DNA of 13,410 nt from Candidatus Poribacteria bacterium (GTDB lineage: Bacteria > Poribacteria > DTPJ01 > WJIO01): assembly GCA_014730235.1 (NCBI GenBank), contig WJIO01000418.1, positions 1 through 13,410 on the forward strand, written 5' to 3'. Of the stretch, positions 3,831-13,410 are shown piece by piece. The position numbers were made by a program, and so were the translations under genes. Each line of letters opens with the position of its first letter. Within the stretch, counting starts at the first letter, position 1. Below the pieces are notes generated by a model. It did not search any database and had not been told where the DNA came from. It saw only the letters and a program-made list of their open reading frames with translations.

Positions 3831-6800
3831 TTATCTGAGTACAGCCATTTTTCCTATCTTCTGGATTCTTTTTCTATATCCCCTGGCCACAAGCTTATAA
3901 AAATAAACACCGTTTGCTATCAGCCTTCCCTTTTCATCCCTCAGATTCCAGTTTATTTCATTATATCCAGCGGAAGCAGGGGCATATAGCTCTTTAATCT
4001 TTCTGCCTGATGCTGTGTATATCCTTATATACATCTCATCAGCCGGTTGGGTCAATACATAGGTAAAGAGAGTTTCTCTGGAACAGGGGTTAGGTCTATT
4101 GGCTATATTCTGTATCATGAAATCCGTTACTACAAATACATCCAGACGCTTTGAGGATGAAAGGCCGTTGGTATCTGTAACTAAAATCTCAACAGTATGA
4201 TTACCATCATTTAGTTTGGGATTATATTCAACAGGTAAAACCTTTTCACCAAATGAAATAGATTGGAATATATATTCGTCAGAAGCCTGGGCGTTATCAA
4301 GATTTATCACAATGGATTTTATGCCATTATCATCTTGGGCCAGTATGGAGAATTGCGGTTCAGCAGAAACCATATCTCCCATTGCAAAACCCTGATTTTT
4401 CACAGATAGATTTACCACCGGCGGGATAGTATCGTTATTAAACATAAGAGCATAAACACCAGCAGTTTTTACATTGGCAGTGATTTTTGAATTATCATTT
4501 GCATAATCATCGCAGATAATCCATATATCAGTATTTTCCAGCCTTTTGTATATGGCTGGATACGGTTCTTCACCATCATATTGAAAATCTATCGCAAAAG
4601 TTCCCTGTAAATTATCATTATTTGTTGATAAGTTTAACCTATAGGCTTGGTCAATAGCTGGTTCTATATCAGGTTGATTAACGTTGTTAATTGCCACAGG
4701 TTCAATATTAGCATAGGTCGGGAAGGTTACAATATGCTGTGGCATGGAAAAGCTGAAGGTATAATCGGAACTCTCAATCCATCCATTAGAACCATTTTCT
4801 GGGGTTATTAATATTTCTTCCTGATTTACCATTGCCCGGATTATGTTGTTTGTTTCATCAATTTCCATTATTTCATTAAGTGGATCCACCCATGCGTATA
4901 TGCCTTCTCCCGAATTTTCCAGGGATATGCTGAAATTGAGATTGACTTTTCCATCCTTTGGTATTGAATTTATGATGTAAGAATACAGTTCGGTTTTATG
5001 GATAAATGGGTCGTTTTTATAGATTTTAAAGCTAACGTTGTTGACATTCGATAAACCGTAATTACTTATAGATGCTGAAATATTACAACCATCTTCCTGA
5101 TTTAATTTTAAAGATGATATTTGAAGATCAGGCAGTCGTTGATCTGTAGAACTTTTAGGAAGCACCAGTCTTGTGGCCGGATCACCTATAAGGACATATG
5201 TGGCAGACAGATCGATATAATCATCCCGGCCTGAGAATCTGGTCATAAAAGATGCCTTAGTTTCTGCAACTATGCGTCCTAATATCCTTTCGTTCTTTTG
5301 AAATATGGTTTTATATATTTCCTCCTCCATCTGTAAATCAGCGTAAAGCAGACCTAAACCGGTAGCACCAAACAAGGCCACAGCGCCGCCATTTTTCAGG
5401 AACAGCAGTTCCTCAGCCAGACATCTGGTATATGGGTTATCGAACCATGCAGTAAAGCACGTCCAGCTTGTAACAAAGGGCAGCTTATCGATATTTTGTA
5501 ATAGTGATACATCTTCAAGGCTGAAAAGGTCGTCATCTGACCATACGCTACCGCCGCCGTGTCCAGCAAAGCGAATCAGGCTGCAACCCTGGTTAAAGTA
5601 TGTCAGCAAATCTTCGGTATCGCCATGATAAGGTGAACCGGGGGCAGTCTGTATTCTGGATATCCTGTAGCTATCGTTTACATAACCGCGGACAAATTCA
5701 TCTGCCTTTTGCTGAAAGATAAGCTGAGGCTCTTCCGGTTGTCGTCCAGATATAAATAAAAGATGGTTCTGCCATGAATCATTCAGGGAATTTGTCTCAT
5801 AGCTGATTATCTTATTAACAGCGATCTGCGCCTCTTCCTTTGTGCTGGCAGGTATGCGTCCCACGTATATGTCCGGCACAGGATCATCACCGGCCACAGT
5901 GACATAATAATCATCGCTGGCTGAAGGCCCCCATTCGCTTCCCGGATCGCCTATTCTGGTGTTGTATGTATACGAAGGTACAAAACTTGTATCTCTTTTA
6001 TACCACCAACTGGAATCTCCCAGCAGGACAAGATAACGGGGTACAGGTTTTGGCCAGTTATGATATGCGTATTTTACAAATTTCCGGATAGCCCGGGGAT
6101 CAAAGATGCCATAACTGAAATTATTATATATATCTTCTATATCCACAACCATAGTTCTTAGCCCCAGGGATGATCGAAATTCAGATAACTTGAGGGCACT
6201 TTCGTAAAAGTCTTGGTGGGTAATTATAATATAATCCGCTCCTGTTTGTGTATTACGCAGATCAGAAATTACCACTTTCTCTAATTTTGATACTTCTTTT
6301 ATGTTATTCCTGGCCAGGGCAATGTAACGGGTATTCGGCGTAATTTCATCCTGAAATATCAGGTTATAATTCCGGGTCGTGTTTTCTATATGAAAATCCG
6401 TCAGTCTGCTGACAATCTTATTGCCCGACATTTTAAAAAGTTCTATATCGGGCACTGAGAATCCTTCCACTTCAAACTGGTAAAATCCCAAATCCTGTGG
6501 GCTGTTAAAATCCAGGTAATCCCCTGATGCCCGGTATTCTTTATAGTATTCCACTTCTATCCAGTCTAGCAGAACCTGTTGTGGCTTTGCATGGGAAACC
6601 TGGGAGGAATAATAAAAACCAATTGTATTCGCGCCGTTGTTAAAGACATAATTGGGAACTTCCGTATTTTCCAGGATAACTAAACCTTTCCCTGAAACTT
6701 CCCCTAGCTTATAACCCGCGTTAAGGTAAACTTCCATACTGTGATTATAAGTGGAATAATCATGAATTCCTATCTTCACAGAACCAATTGAAGCTGATTC

Positions 6801-7373
6801 AAATACCTTTTCAAGTTCAAAATTCATCTGGGAAAGGCCCGGTGTATTTAAACGCATCCAGTACCATACCGTTTCATCGTTCCGGGTATAGTGCTGAAAG
6901 CGTCCATTGTCAATCTGGAATTTCACCCGTTTTTTGAAGCCCCGCTCCGGAAGCTTATAATCGTTTTCCAGCAAGCTGGCTTTTTCCTCAACGATCCGGG
7001 ATTGATAAGAACCATCCCATGACAACCAGTATACGTTTATAAACGTATACTGGTTGTCCTTTTTACCCTGTCCATAGAAAAGAATATAATCCCCTTCATC
7101 AAATCTACCGTCCTGGTCTCCTGCTATGTATATGGGCACATCAACGCCGGTGCAGATCATGCCGAACTTTGCAGGATTCAGATTGTCCACTTCCAGCCCA
7201 ACTTTTTCCAGATGCTGAGTGGTGATGGAATAGAAACCATCTTCTTTTACTATGATCTTAATCTTTTCCGGGATATCTGCTTGTATTTCCAGACACAGCA
7301 AGATTATAGATAATACGCATATCAGAAGGCTCAGCGGGAGCTTCGCCCTCCCGGATCTATAATATAAAAGCAT
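3831..7373 (-). CDS. Exported gingipain-like (C25) cysteine peptidase with CARDB-like and FlgD-like C-terminal domains
   Basis: Probable secreted or surface cysteine peptidase of 1180 residues. The reading frame is open back to 7439, but the ATG at 7373, one base after the upstream stop codon, gives a textbook signal peptide (LLYYRSGRAK, a hydrophobic run, then EIQA before DIPEK), so I prefer it. The N-terminal beta-rich region (about 33-375) resembles the prodomain-like part of PorU and gingipains (EDGFYSIT; GDYILFYGQG). The C25 catalytic domain (about 378-740) holds the His-Cys dyad: His605 in RFAGHGGG and Cys639 in TSWTCFTAWF, 34 apart as in gingipains. Next come a CARDB-like domain (about 748-850), further beta-sandwich modules, and a FlgD-like C-terminal domain (about 1083-1180: RPNPCS, IYTASGRKIKEL, NGVYFYKL, ending KMAVLR). 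It is the last gene of the export operon. The substrate is unknown; a PorU-like sorting peptidase is possible but unproven. Confidence 0.88.
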   Translation of the reverse strand: MLLYYRSGRAKLPLSLLICVLSIILLCLEIQADIPEKIKIIVKEDGFYSITTQHLEKVGLEVDNLNPAKFGMICTGVDVPIYIAGDQDGRFDEGDYILFYGQGKKDNQYTFINVYWLSWDGSYQSRIVEEKASLLENDYKLPERGFKKRVKFQIDNGRFQHYTRNDETVWYWMRLNTPGLSQMNFELEKVFESASIGSVKIGIHDYSTYNHSMEVYLNAGYKLGEVSGKGLVILENTEVPNYVFNNGANTIGFYYSSQVSHAKPQQVLLDWIEVEYYKEYRASGDYLDFNSPQDLGFYQFEVEGFSVPDIELFKMSGNKIVSRLTDFHIENTTRNYNLIFQDEITPNTRYIALARNNIKEVSKLEKVVISDLRNTQTGADYIIITHQDFYESALKLSEFRSSLGLRTMVVDIEDIYNNFSYGIFDPRAIRKFVKYAYHNWPKPVPRYLVLLGDSSWWYKRDTSFVPSYTYNTRIGDPGSEWGPSASDDYYVTVAGDDPVPDIYVGRIPASTKEEAQIAVNKIISYETNSLNDSWQNHLLFISGRQPEEPQLIFQQKADEFVRGYVNDSYRISRIQTAPGSPYHGDTEDLLTYFNQGCSLIRFAGHGGGSVWSDDDLFSLEDVSLLQNIDKLPFVTSWTCFTAWFDNPYTRCLAEELLFLKNGGAVALFGATGLGLLYADLQMEEEIYKTIFQKNERILGRIVAETKASFMTRFSGRDDYIDLSATYVLIGDPATRLVLPKSSTDQRLPDLQISSLKLNQEDGCNISASISNYGLSNVNNVSFKIYKNDPFIHKTELYSYIINSIPKDGKVNLNFSISLENSGEGIYAWVDPLNEIMEIDETNNIIRAMVNQEEILITPENGSNGWIESSDYTFSFSMPQHIVTFPTYANIEPVAINNVNQPDIEPAIDQAYRLNLSTNNDNLQGTFAIDFQYDGEEPYPAIYKRLENTDIWIICDDYANDNSKITANVKTAGVYALMFNNDTIPPVVNLSVKNQGFAMGDMVSAEPQFSILAQDDNGIKSIVINLDNAQASDEYIFQSISFGEKVLPVEYNPKLNDGNHTVEILVTDTNGLSSSKRLDVFVVTDFMIQNIANRPNPCSRETLFTYVLTQPADEMYIRIYTASGRKIKELYAPASAGYNEINWNLRDEKGRLIANGVYFYKLVARGYRKRIQKIGKMAVLR
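7021..7058. repeat. Perfect 38-base palindrome inside the C25 peptidase gene
   Basis: Bases 7021-7039 are the exact reverse complement of 7040-7058, with no spacer and no mismatch; pairing stops at 7020/7059. It encodes residues 106-118 of the peptidase (DNQYTFINVYWLS) without disturbing the frame. In DNA it could extrude a cruciform and in mRNA it would form a very stable hairpin about 340 bases into the gene. Confidence 0.95.
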
Positions 7374-7374
7374 T

Positions 7375-8070
7375 TTAATTACCCAAAGATTGCACAGAAA
7401 AATGACCCCATCGGGACTGAGAGCCTGCTGATTTACCACCGGAACAGGTTACATTCCATCGATAATTACCATCATCCTGTGGCTCTTCCAATGCAAGATA
7501 ATCATCGTTGAAAACTCTCTTTAACTGCTGGTATGGGTAGGTCATGCTGCTTTGCCAGATTTCCCACCAACCGTCTTCACGAGATTTGTAAACATGGATT
7601 TGGTAAGAAGAAGCTCCGGAAACAGGCATCCACTCAAAGACAATATGGTCTGGAGGGATTACAGCATTTTCAATTGGTCGCAACAGGATTGGTTTTCTTA
7701 ATAAAGTGTAATATACAATATCTGACGGTTCGCTTTCTATGCTATTATAATTCAAGGCCGTAACCCGATAGTAGTATTTTTCTCCGAGGGATATTTCTGT
7801 GTCTTCGTATTGATCATCGGCGTTAGGCACTTCAGCAATGAGTCTAAAATCTTCCTCCCCGGCTAACTGGCTTCTATAGATTTTGTATGAATCAATATCG
7901 GATTCGGTATTTGCTTCCCATTGGATTAATATGGAATCCCGATCTGGTGTGGAATTTGCCCATAATATCTGAGGTTTTTGTAGTTGGTCTTGATTGGTGT
8001 TTTGTTCTGAGCAGCTAGAGACAAAGATTATAAGGATGGAAAAGGTAATCTTTAAAGCATCATTGGCCAT
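7375..8070 (-). CDS. Predicted lipoprotein with fibronectin type III domains
   Basis: This 231-residue protein starts with a lipoprotein signal (MANDALKITFSILIIFVSSC). The lipobox VSSC would make Cys20 the lipid-modified N-terminus, tethering the protein to a membrane. A clear FN3 domain spans about 32-123: QKPQILWANS, IQWEANTESDIDSYKIYRS, KYYYRVTALNYNSIESEPSD. A second FN3-like sandwich spans about 126-228 (ILLRPIENAV, VFEWMPVSGASSYQIHVY, GNYRWNVTCSG). No catalytic motif is visible, so a structural or binding role is likely. The ATG overlaps the end of the upstream dockerin gene by 11 bases and no good Shine-Dalgarno is seen, which suggests translational coupling. The next ATG (C25 peptidase) begins one base after its stop codon. 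Confidence 0.85.
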   Translation of the reverse strand: MANDALKITFSILIIFVSSCSEQNTNQDQLQKPQILWANSTPDRDSILIQWEANTESDIDSYKIYRSQLAGEEDFRLIAEVPNADDQYEDTEISLGEKYYYRVTALNYNSIESEPSDIVYYTLLRKPILLRPIENAVIPPDHIVFEWMPVSGASSYQIHVYKSREDGWWEIWQSSMTYPYQQLKRVFNDDYLALEEPQDDGNYRWNVTCSGGKSAGSQSRWGHFSVQSLGN

Positions 8071-9055
8071 AATTGCGCCCGAGTATCAGAAGGTCGGTGA
8101 GATTTATAAGCCCATCGGAGTTGTAGTCCGAGCGGAAGTCATAACCGGAACTGCCGGCAGTAGTATTGTAGGATTTACCCAGCCGCAGCAGATCAGAAAT
8201 GCCGGTGCTTCCATCACCGTCGCTGTCTCCAGGTTTCTGGCCTGATAGGGATGAGGATTGATACCAGCCTGTTGACCTGATGAAATCCATAACTACAAAG
8301 CTGGTCAGCAGGTTATTTCCCTGAAAGTATCTGATTTCCAGGGGTTGAGGGGAATTAGCAGGTGTTGCGTTTTTTATGTCCGCAGACCAGTAGCTGCCGT
8401 TTATTTCCGCCTGAAAATCATTACCAGCGATATTAACAACAACCTGATTCGCCTGAGACAACATTCTCCCGGATATTTCAGCCTTTTCCAGTTGCTTGCT
8501 GAACATATCGTTGTAGTAATTAACTGTAACTGTAGTAGAAGATGGGCCTCCTGAATACTGATATGAAGAGGCATCAGTAATATCAAACTGCGGGTAAGTG
8601 TTGCTGTTTTTCCGGAAAGTGGCTTTTATGAGGGAATCGGCTTCTGAATGGTTTACCGCCGGTGCGGTAAAAACGGTTATTTCCGGCGAAAGGCCAAAAT
8701 CTCCATCAGAATATTGGGTCGTCCAATCTGGCGCAATTCCCGAAACGCGGCTGGAATCCGGTGTTGTTTGGGGGAAAAATCCTGTAATAGAAAGAGATGA
8801 CGGACTTGCATCGGTGGGATTTACGAACTCTGCAGAATTTGCGGGTGTCCATGAAAGCCTGAAGGCCATCATGGTGACACCCGGAGCGTCAGCCTCTGCG
8901 AGTATTTCCACATTGAAAGTCTGACCGGTGCTTAAACTGACGAAGTAATCAGGAGTAGGAGCGCAGATATATAAACTTACATCAGCCTGCGCTATATTAA
9001 TTATTAAAGCCGAAAATATAATCAAAAATACTGCACAGGTTAAAGATAATTTCAA
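8060..9055 (-). CDS. Exported protein with cohesin-like domain and C-terminal dockerin
   Basis: A 331-residue secreted protein. The signal peptide (MKLSLTCAVFLIIFSALIIN...) is cleaved after about AQA24. Residues about 25-182 form a cohesin-like beta-sandwich (GQTFNVEILAEADAPGVTMMAFRLSWTP). Residues about 190-265 look like an Ig-like module. The C-terminus (276-331) is a type-I-like dockerin with two complete calcium loops: D277, D279, D281, D288 followed by LLRLGKSYN, and D310, N312, D314, D321 followed by LLILGRNYG. Dockerins bind cohesins, and this protein carries both modules, as does its operon. The start codon is TTG with AGGAG (9063-9067) seven bases upstream, overlapping the stop codon of the preceding gene. 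Partner and ligand are not shown by sequence. Confidence 0.87.
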   Translation of the reverse strand: MKLSLTCAVFLIIFSALIINIAQADVSLYICAPTPDYFVSLSTGQTFNVEILAEADAPGVTMMAFRLSWTPANSAEFVNPTDASPSSLSITGFFPQTTPDSSRVSGIAPDWTTQYSDGDFGLSPEITVFTAPAVNHSEADSLIKATFRKNSNTYPQFDITDASSYQYSGGPSSTTVTVNYYNDMFSKQLEKAEISGRMLSQANQVVVNIAGNDFQAEINGSYWSADIKNATPANSPQPLEIRYFQGNNLLTSFVVMDFIRSTGWYQSSSLSGQKPGDSDGDGSTGISDLLRLGKSYNTTAGSSGYDFRSDYNSDGLINLTDLLILGRNYGQ

Positions 9056-9062
9056 TTATGGT

Positions 9063-9067
9063 CTCCT
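9063..9067 (-). promoter_or_regulatory. Ribosome binding site deciding the TTG start of the dockerin gene
   Basis: AGGAG on the minus strand lies seven bases before the TTG at 9055. It overlaps the TAG stop of the upstream gene, so translation may be coupled. There is no in-frame ATG near this position. Confidence 0.75.
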
Positions 9068-10178
9068 ACTTCAACATAACGAGCTTCTTTATAGCAAAAA
9101 AGCTGTTTTCAATCTTCATGGTATAAAAATAGACAACACTGGGTACATCTTCGCCGGATGAGGTTCTACCGTCCCAATATGCGGAATTGCTTCTGGATAT
9201 ATATCTACCGGGAGATTTGTGTCCTAAATCCAGTCTTCTTATCAACTGACCGGCGGCGTTGTATATATCCACCATTACATTACCCTCTGTTGAGACAACG
9301 TAAGGTATCCACGTTTCTGGGTTGCATGGATTGGGGTAATTTTGACCCAGTTCGTTCTTTGATGGCGGATCAAGGGCATCTTCCGTAATTTCCACGCTTA
9401 TAATCCTGCTGAGATTTTTATCTCCTGAAAAATCAATATTTTCCAGCCTATAGTAGTAGGTCTGGCCGGGGTTTACATCTGTGTCGTTAAAGCTGTAATT
9501 ATGCACTTCCGGAGAAGTTCCGTGACCGGGGATAAGCTCTTTGTTTATTTTGCTGTAACCTTCATTGATGGAATTACTGCGGAGCACATTAAAGCCCATA
9601 TTATCTATTTCGTGGGTAGTCTGCCAGAGAACTTCTACACCGCTTTCAGTGACAACCACCGAAAGGGAGGATAAGTCCACCGGCAGGGAAATATCAATGC
9701 TAGGAGTCCATGATACAGGTGTTACATTCTGCTCATCCATATTCAGAGCTGATATACCCGAAAAACCAAACCTTACAGTACCTTCACCGGATTTTTTTGT
9801 AAAAGTAAGGGTTACTAATACTCCCGATTCGGAATCATTTGCCCCACTAGTGGTAGCAACGGCGATTTTATAACTTCCAGGTGTATTGGTGTTGCTATCT
9901 ATAACAATTGCACCAGGTAGGAATGAACCGGAAGAAACAGAAACATATTCAACATTTTCACTTGGTGTCCATGTTACGTCAAATTCAACTGCGGCGATAG
10001 TGCCAACCGGTGCTGTAGCAATTACGTTGATGGTGAAATTTCCATCCACAGGCACAACATCATCTGTTAAAGGCACAGGGGGATTTGTATCGGAAAACGA
10101 AAGATCTAATCCCGCACTTGCGATGAAAATGGGTGTGAATATAAGGAGTAATATACAGAAAAATATTTTAATTCGCAA
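9066..10178 (-). CDS. Exported cohesin-like / FN3-like protein with FlgD-like C-terminal domain
   Basis: First gene of the export operon, about 370 residues. The frame is open to a GTG at 10187, but AAGGTGGT sits just before the TTG at 10178 and that GTG lies inside this ribosome site, so I prefer TTG. The signal peptide (RIKIFFCILLLIFTPIFIASA) is cleaved before GLDLS. Residues about 25-165 form a cohesin-like domain (GNFTINVIATAPVGTIAAVEFDVTWTP). Residues about 167-265 form an FN3-like region (LPVDLSSLSVVVTESGVEVLW, DNMGFNVLRS, YYYRLENIDFSG). Residues 275-370 are a FlgD-like domain: QNYPNPCNPETWIPYVV, VDIYNAAGQLIRRLDLG, SAYWDGR, ending KKLVMLK. The NPETWIPY phrasing resembles Candidatus Poribacteria proteins. 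The usual GVYFY reads VVYFY here. It could display a cohesin on the cell surface; that is inference. Confidence 0.87.
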   Translation of the reverse strand: MRIKIFFCILLLIFTPIFIASAGLDLSFSDTNPPVPLTDDVVPVDGNFTINVIATAPVGTIAAVEFDVTWTPSENVEYVSVSSGSFLPGAIVIDSNTNTPGSYKIAVATTSGANDSESGVLVTLTFTKKSGEGTVRFGFSGISALNMDEQNVTPVSWTPSIDISLPVDLSSLSVVVTESGVEVLWQTTHEIDNMGFNVLRSNSINEGYSKINKELIPGHGTSPEVHNYSFNDTDVNPGQTYYYRLENIDFSGDKNLSRIISVEITEDALDPPSKNELGQNYPNPCNPETWIPYVVSTEGNVMVDIYNAAGQLIRRLDLGHKSPGRYISRSNSAYWDGRTSSGEDVPSVVYFYTMKIENSFFAIKKLVMLK

Positions 10179-10182
10179 TTTT

Positions 10183-10190
10183 ACCACCTT
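10183..10190 (-). promoter_or_regulatory. Ribosome binding site of the export operon's first gene
   Basis: AAGGTGGT on the minus strand differs from AAGGAGGT at one base and lies four bases before the TTG at 10178. It supports a TTG start over the in-frame GTG at 10187, which has no ribosome site of its own. Confidence 0.65.
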
Positions 10191-10375: not shown

Positions 10376-10405
10376 TTGTCATTCCTGCAAAAGCAGGAAT
10401 GACAA
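10376..10405. repeat. Perfect 13-base-arm hairpin repeat
   Basis: Arms 10376-10388 and 10393-10405 are exact reverse complements around an AAAA loop. The core TGTCATTCCTGC/GCAGGAATGACA is identical to the outer arms inside the element at the right edge of the window, so this is a solo member of the same palindromic family. On the plus strand it is followed by A/T-rich sequence, but no plus-strand gene leads into it. Confidence 0.9.
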
Positions 10406-10462
10406 ATTTTATAATTATATAATTGACTATAGAAAAAAGCTTATATAGTAAACATATCTGGC

Positions 10463-10620
10463 TCTTCCGGGTTCAGTGTGGTAAAGATAAGAAACTTTTT
10501 TATGCTGCCATTCCTTCGAAAGCAGGAATCCAGTAGATCTGCATAAAGACTGGATTCCTGCTTTCGAAGGAATGACAAGCTGAGAGAATTTTCAACTATA
10601 ACCACACTAAATCCGGAAGA
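10463..10620. mobile_element. 158-base MITE-like element with terminal and internal inverted repeats (copy A)
   Basis: The terminal inverted repeats 10463-10482 and 10601-10620 match at 18 of 20 bases (TCTTCCGG, then TTnAGTGTGGT inward). Inside lies a perfect 26-base inverted repeat (arms 10509-10534 and 10549-10574, 14-base loop) built on CATTCCTTCGAAAGCAGGAATCCAGT. It encodes nothing. A diverged second copy lies at 13261-13410. The arms resemble the GAATGAC/GGAATCCAG palindromic repeats widespread in bacterial genomes. I see no convincing target-site duplication. It starts about 40 bases past the TPR gene's stop and could act as a 3' hairpin for that transcript. Confidence 0.75.
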
Positions 10621-10661
10621 AACACATATATTTCATTTTTTAACGATTATCTTTTTATAAC

Positions 10662-11150: not shown

Positions 11151-11414
11151 TTATGCTTTATAATAATAGAGTATAGCCTGTTTCTGAACAACCAGATTAG
11201 GTGCTTCCGGCTCTCTTTCCAGCTTTATAGCGTATTGATCATACCATGTGATATAACCGGTAAGTTCTTCTTCGTTTACCAGTTTTATTACCATCTTAGT
11301 TTTTTCCCGCATCTGTTTTAATAGATAATATTCATAAGCAAAAGTACGTTGAGCCGGTTTTTGCTTTTTTTGCTGTTGGGATTTTGATCTTGACCTTTGC
11401 CCTGTCGCTGACAT
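11151..11414 (-). CDS. Hfq-like Sm-fold RNA-binding protein
   Basis: Probable RNA chaperone of the Hfq/Sm-like superfamily, 87 residues. The N-terminal 23 residues are basic and Gln-rich (RSRSKSQQQKKQKPAQR) and probably disordered. An amphipathic helix follows (YEYYLLKQMREKT). The Sm1 motif spans about 40-66 (KMVIKLVNEEELTGYITWYDQYAIKLE) and the Sm2 motif about 73-85 (NLVVQKQAILYYY). In Sm2 the classical Hfq YKHA reads QKQA, so the proximal-site histidine is missing, and the helix lacks the canonical N-terminal Gln. It therefore looks like a divergent Hfq-related branch. An ATG at 11432 is also in frame, but AAGGAG at 11423-11428, eight bases before the ATG at 11414, decides for the shorter form. 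It is first in a two-gene unit with the TPR gene. Confidence 0.82.
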   Translation of the reverse strand: MSATGQRSRSKSQQQKKQKPAQRTFAYEYYLLKQMREKTKMVIKLVNEEELTGYITWYDQYAIKLEREPEAPNLVVQKQAILYYYKA

Positions 11415-11422
11415 TAATAGCT

Positions 11423-11428
11423 CTCCTT
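11423..11428 (-). promoter_or_regulatory. Ribosome binding site deciding the start of the Hfq-like gene
   Basis: AAGGAG on the minus strand lies eight bases upstream of the ATG at 11414, inside what would otherwise be codons 2-4 of the longer reading from 11432. Confidence 0.8.
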
Positions 11429-11471
11429 CCATAGATGAATTTCAACTATTGAGCGAATTTATATTGATTTT

Positions 11472-13185: not shown

Positions 13186-13260
13186 TGAAAACATTTCATC
13201 AAGCATAAAATTTATGTCCCTATGTTATTGCGAAGAACGGGGTAACAAATAAAGTTTGGT

Positions 13261-13410
13261 TCCTTCGGATTCAATGTGTTAAAAATAAGAAACTTCTATA
13301 TGCTGTCATTCCTGCGAAACTCTTATTCCTTTTTGCTCAAGCTTTTTCAAAAAGCTTGAAGCAGGAATGACAAGCTGAGAAAATTTTCAAATTATAACCA
13401 TACTCAAACC
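13261..13410. mobile_element. MITE-like element, copy B, cut by the right edge
   Basis: The first 53 or so bases align without gaps to the left end of the element at 10463, differing at about nine positions (shared ATAAGAAACTT and ATGCTG). The right part shares GAATGACAAGCTGAGA and AATTTTCAA. The centre differs: outer arms TGTCATTCCTGC (13304-13315) and its complement (13361-13372) enclose a separate 23-base palindrome with 11-base arms TCAAGCTTTTT. The right terminal repeat reaches the window edge, so its last few bases are probably missing. The element lies about 75 bases upstream of the histidine kinase promoters. Confidence 0.7.

Follow-up and report, generated by a model that had tools for sequence, protein, structure and literature searches.

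In a compact four-gene operon of Candidatus Poribacteria, a lipoprotein and a C25 peptidase form a deeply conserved pair, while the cohesin and dockerin proteins encoded ahead of them are best read as lineage-specific cargo. We lean, with some reserve, towards regarding the operon as a T9SS-like surface-anchoring unit in which a sortase pair, with PorV encoded elsewhere, is co-transcribed with its own cohesin/dockerin cargo. Each part resembles something known, the combination is new, and the conserved lipoprotein is a more interesting lead than the cohesin/dockerin set. The stretch of DNA analyzed here (13,410 nucleotides, hereafter the window) stems from contig C365 of a 5.53 Mb Candidatus Poribacteria MAG (genome G000). 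Its central block, located between a TPR/hfq block and yicC-gmk-rpoZ-coaBC, comprises the following features:

10270-10242, minus strand: promoter-like site TTGACA-17-TATATT with TG before the -10 element, 11/12 in a consensus scan, a match which alone is no proof of function
9066..10178, minus strand: gene 1 (P0004), signal peptide, cohesin-like module, FN3-like module and T9SS type A-like sorting tail
8060..9055, minus strand: gene 2 (P0003), signal peptide, divergent cohesin-like module (probable), Ig-like region and type I dockerin
7375..8070, minus strand: gene 3 (P0002), lipoprotein with FN3 and a second beta domain
3831..7373, minus strand: gene 4 (C25), PorU-like C25 peptidase of 1180 aa

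A sequence-only reading of this DNA had described four adjacent, compactly arranged genes on one strand, all with exported products, behind a single promoter. The reading frames are indeed found there, spaced from gene 1 to gene 4 by 10 nt, an 11-nt overlap and 1 nt, and a signal peptide or lipobox was read by eye from the sequence of all four products. The postulated promoter is matched, at the level of consensus, by the 11/12 site immediately upstream of gene 1. Within the corresponding open reading frame (9066-10187), the start of gene 1 had been placed at 10178, where a probable TTG start follows AAGGTGG. For the C25 gene, the mechanical call had been a GTG at 7439, while the ATG at 7373, one base after the P0002 stop, opens a signal peptide. 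A second promoter-like site (12/12, again a consensus match only) is located at 3798-3770, downstream of the operon and ahead of yicC. In the opposite flank, the gene of an Hfq-related protein with a basic N-terminal extension (11151-11432) adjoins that of a TPR membrane protein.

Gene 4 provides the enzymatic component. Its catalytic domain scores 310 bits against PF01364, and a PorU-like N-terminal region and a CARDB domain are further parts of the chain. Since the protein (P0001) reaches 396.6 bits against the NCBIfam PorU model NF033707 over residues 60-766, and thereby misses the equivalog cut-off of 420, it is termed PorU-like here and not filed as PorU. The best solved relative is PorU itself (6za2), with an alignment that spans the catalytic His and Cys and resumes in the C-terminal region; His605 and Cys639 are invariant in an alignment of eight relatives. 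Gene 4 also carries a type A-like C-terminal sorting tail of its own (TIGR04183, 28.2 bits, cut-off 23), and Pfam finds FlgD_ig on both gene 1 and gene 4. The processing role suggested earlier for the peptidase can hence be worded more precisely, as its family relations point to a PorU-like sortase relative. Among the four C25 proteins encoded in the genome, another one (contig C261) passes the PorU cut-off with 460.4 bits, so that the role of main sortase need not fall to gene 4. In a tree of C25 proteins, the one from the window has a long branch and groups, with a support of 94, with C25s from a recurrent gene cassette described below, apart from the other C25s of its genome and from an abundant poribacterial type of about 1700 aa. 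This second type, very abundant in Poribacteria (L037, L038, L039, L047), is found downstream of a sensor kinase gene and two small genes (about 95-104 aa), the products of which begin M-D/Y-x-A-K-V-I-G, reminiscent of microcompartment vertex proteins. One contig of an 'Actinomycetota' MAG is probably misbinned, as its C25 is nearly identical to a C25 of Calditrichota (L147 and L141).

The lipoprotein encoded by gene 3 (lipobox ..FVSSC, Cys20) is covered by no family model in Pfam or NCBIfam. With P0002 as lone query, eight relatives were retrieved among 1130 flanking ORFs, each of them two genes downstream of a C25 gene and separated from it by a PorV-family gene. The family aligns over its full length, and both the lipobox Cys and a motif near the C-terminus, YRWRVD...GSES.W..F, are conserved. 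A search of 19 whole genomes with this alignment gave 16 copies in 15 genomes at E 2e-40 or better, followed by a gap down to 1.5e-21, where generic FN3 matches appear; the family is essentially single-copy. These 16 full-length copies come from several phyla, and the order C25-PorV-lipoprotein applies to 14 of them, PorV-lipoprotein to all 16. For the eight copies not known beforehand, PorV is directly ahead in 8/8 and C25 precedes PorV in 6/8; one of the other two lies at a contig end and one has no C25 in view. The cassette was seen in Latescibacterota, Fidelibacterota (Marinimicrobia), KSB1, Calditrichota, Gemmatimonadota and TA06, while in Fibrobacterota a distant relative of the lipoprotein is encoded directly upstream of C25, which is the arrangement of the window.

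The window shares with these cassette loci the lipoprotein family and the C25 clade. It differs from them in that it holds no PorV gene (PorV genes are present elsewhere in the genome), the lipoprotein precedes C25, two cohesin genes lie upstream, and the C25 has 1180 aa compared with about 1600 aa. Gene 3 is probably a partner of the C25 enzyme and, as such, part of an attachment complex. The four-gene set fares differently. The sequence-only reading had proposed a search for the same gene order in relatives and had taken the C25-lipoprotein pair as incidental; it is this pair that is conserved, whereas a cohesin gene within three genes of C25 was found in none of 80 related C25 loci (0/80), and the idea of the four-gene set as an ancient module was rejected on this ground. 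The refuting condition named in that reading, a gene order that relatives do not share, thereby applies to the four genes taken together, though not to the C25-lipoprotein pair. In the poribacterium with the best relatives of both C25 and lipoprotein (G057), the two are even encoded on different contigs, with the lipoprotein in an unrelated setting. Genes for tail-bearing cargo as such are found ahead of C25 in several further phyla (L152, L158, L160, L274-L276).

Regarding the cargo, gene 1 is divided, in a frame of 373 aa, into a cohesin-like module (about 38-161), an FN3-like module (about 165-270) and the tail/FlgD_ig region (274-373). Cohesin, dockerin, FlgD-like domain and C25 had all been recognized previously, while the FN3-like module of gene 1 and the tail of gene 4 had been missed. 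Pfam does not match the gene 1 cohesin at E<1. Against a profile of the Pfam-recognised cohesins of the same genome, it scores 37.8 bits (E 1.5e-12 in a 12-protein set), and hhalign against cohesins gives 94%; by the profile, the module is homologous to cohesins. The tail matches a tail profile from the same genome with E 2.5e-43, a value to be read with the fact that this profile was built from relatives of the same tail, and dozens of proteins in the genome have tails matching that of gene 1 (E 1e-23 to 1e-32). As judged from this type A-like tail, the surface attachment proposed for the first product appears sound.

Gene 2 harbors the predicted dockerin at residues 275-327. It is a type I dockerin both by its score (PF00404, 27 bits, cut-off 22.9) and by two intact calcium-binding loops, DSDGDGSTGISD and DYNSDGLINLTD. 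An Ig-like region separates it from the N-terminal module (residues 25-182), and no sorting tail was found in gene 2. Of the two cohesins claimed, the one in gene 1 stands, while the one in this module gives a weaker signal: it scores 12.9 bits against a cohesin profile that includes gene 1, where the best shuffle reaches 10.9, and BLASTP aligns it with the mature domain of gene 1 at E 6e-6. An alignment-guided AF2 model matches cohesins with Z up to 12.8 (2vo8), although its guide consisted of cohesin rows and the result is circular to that extent; single-sequence AF2 of P0003 yielded a pLDDT of 35.8. With the P0003 N-terminus alone, hhalign against cohesins was negative, and among 58 genomes of the phylum no relatives of this part were found, matches being limited to the Ig-dockerin end. 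Taken together, weak sequence signal and cohesin-guided model suggest that the module is probably a divergent cohesin.

The genome as a whole encodes 15 dockerins, 17 Pfam-recognised cohesins and 51 FlgD_ig matches (about 50 sorting tails), and several of its proteins combine cohesin, dockerin and sorting tail in one chain. Two further loci pair a tail-anchored cohesin with a neighboring dockerin protein: on contig C401, a dockerin-cohesin-tail gene is followed by a 220-aa cohesin-dockerin protein, and on contig C112, a cohesin-tail gene is followed by PorV and then a dockerin protein. Thus, the operon is no isolated invention, as the genome has many other surface cohesin/dockerin genes besides its two. 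For translocation, one collinear SprA homologue is available, a SprA-like protein of 2297 aa matching in four stretches in order (182.3 bits, cut-off 200; E 9e-54), and the SprA search gave matches in 20/20 genomes searched. A LysM domain is located at the N-terminus of this protein (L255 2644-9537, G000:C368). PorV-family shuttles are represented by 13 matches above the NF033709 cut-off. In total, the PorV/PorQ family is expanded to 25 matches (among others on C164, C243, C40, C83 and C112), and some of these genes adjoin sorting-tail genes (C83, C393, C112), as if many cargo proteins had dedicated shuttles. GldM/PorM gave no match in the genome at E 0.01, for which a diverged motor or genome gaps may account; hence, the T9SS of this genome appears incomplete or diverged.

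T9SS is usually described as a system of Bacteroidota or of the FCB group. Its PorV acts as shuttle and its PorU as sortase (PMC5562754), and dedicated shuttles for its cargo have been described (PMC12618676). With the PorU-PorV-PorQ-PorZ attachment complex of P. gingivalis (PMC5562754), the window shares a C25 sortase-like protein with its own C-terminal domain, and its genome shares PorV-type shuttles, a SprA/Sov-like translocon and type A-like cargo tails. In contrast to that complex, the C25 lies below the PorU cut-off, PorV is encoded outside the operon, GldM was not detected, the cargo consists of cohesin/dockerin modules, and nothing in the complex as described corresponds to the FN3 lipoprotein.

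From the observed anatomy, family relations and synteny, we infer a route of transport, a role as sortase, the partners in binding and a mode of assembly. The gene 1 product would be exported by Sec and pass the outer membrane via the SprA-like translocon, guided by its C-terminal tail and one PorV-type shuttle. A C25 sortase, plausibly that of gene 4, would then cleave it and fix it to the surface; the gene 3 lipoprotein would work with this enzyme in the attachment machinery, PorV being supplied from elsewhere in the genome. Lacking a tail, the gene 2 product would depend on its dockerin to stay on the surface, and the partner of this dockerin may be the cohesin of gene 1, another tail-anchored cohesin of the cell or that of a second gene 2 molecule; in the last case, short chains could form. 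Several points count against this preferred explanation, namely that gene 2 has no tail of its own for crossing the outer membrane and, furthermore, the lack of PorV in the operon, the PorU cut-off missed by gene 4 but passed by the C25 on C261, the undetected GldM, the weak cohesin signal of gene 2 with its cohesin-guided model, and the long branch of the C25.

Among the alternatives, chance co-location is improbable. In this reading, two cohesin cargo genes, of which the genome has many, would have landed upstream of a lipoprotein-C25 pair and would share its transcription but not its function. The unconserved four-gene order (no neighboring cohesin gene in the 80 C25 loci) and the scatter of cohesin, dockerin and tail genes across the genome agree with this, whereas the tight spacings of 10, -11 and 1 nt behind one promoter-like site and the tail-bearing cargo ahead of C25 in other phyla do not.

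Rather doubtful is a small, non-cellulosomal degradative complex. On the model proposed for Ca. Stygibacter, the C25 would be a digestive surface protease, and the cohesin/dockerin proteins would bind other enzymes or extracellular protein substrates. True gingipain-type proteases do belong to C25, cohesins and dockerins are numerous in the genome, and for Ca. Stygibacter (Cloacimonadota) a cellulosome-like complex has been proposed in which a tail-anchored cohesin scaffoldin is combined with a C25 that bears a dockerin (PMC8542988). This complex is the nearest published idea to the window operon, as both have a cohesin protein that a C-terminal sorting domain would attach to the surface, and both bring C25 and dockerins together in one system. 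The earlier remark that no characterized system has this gene set holds within the literature searched for the set as such, while the proposal from Cloacimonadota already covers its tail-anchored cohesin in company with a C25. However, in Ca. Stygibacter a single large scaffoldin unites multiple cohesins with CBMs, and the dockerins are carried by enzymes including C25 (PMC8542988), while the window has single cohesins, a dockerin on a non-enzymatic protein and a C25 with a tail in place of a dockerin. Moreover, this C25 is PorU-like in its N- and C-terminal regions and tied to the PorV-cassette lipoprotein, and the operon encodes no dockerin-bearing enzyme. A more far-reaching version of the anchoring idea is likewise rather unlikely, in which the FN3 lipoprotein would be an unrecognised sortase/attachment subunit of T9SS-like systems outside Bacteroidota, and the complex would, in this lineage, be dedicated to anchoring a cohesin that seeds cohesin-dockerin chains on the surface, i.e. 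a sortase-primed, self-docking protein coat. A cellulosome was rejected, given the single cohesins and the lack of a dockerin-bearing enzyme in the operon.

A further comparison is offered by Archaeoglobus fulgidus, where the genes of two cohesin/dockerin proteins are presumably adjacent. It likewise has a protein with cohesin and dockerin as well as a second cohesin protein (2xdh; cited in PMC9012536 and PMC9705933), with no link to cellulose degradation, and differs in being archaeal and in lacking sorting tail, C25 and lipoprotein. In the literature, of which our search covered a part, we found no paper linking Poribacteria with cohesin and dockerin or with gingipain, and no description of an FN3 lipoprotein beside PorU/PorV. 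Of wider interest is that a poribacterium has proteins resembling SprA, PorV and PorU together with about fifty sorting tails, and that the C25-PorV-lipoprotein cassette recurs over several candidate phyla with a lipoprotein outside every curated model. If this lipoprotein belongs to the attachment machinery, a missing part would have been named, and the cohesin/dockerin cargo suggests a route by which uncultured bacteria might arrive at surface assemblies unrelated to cellulose digestion.

The window also contains repetitive sequences. REP/MITE-like repeats TTGTCATTCCTGC...GCAGGAATGACAA are located at 10376-10652 and 13257-13390 and recur on further contigs of this genome (L200, L201, L203, L043). 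Within the C25 coding sequence, a perfect 38-bp palindrome (19/19, no loop) is found at 7021-7058; its left arm looks like a templated copy, since it is the right arm in which the invariant motif NVYWLSW is encoded. The genome is rich in perfect palindromes whose arms measure 13-25 bp, several of them centered on GTATAC.
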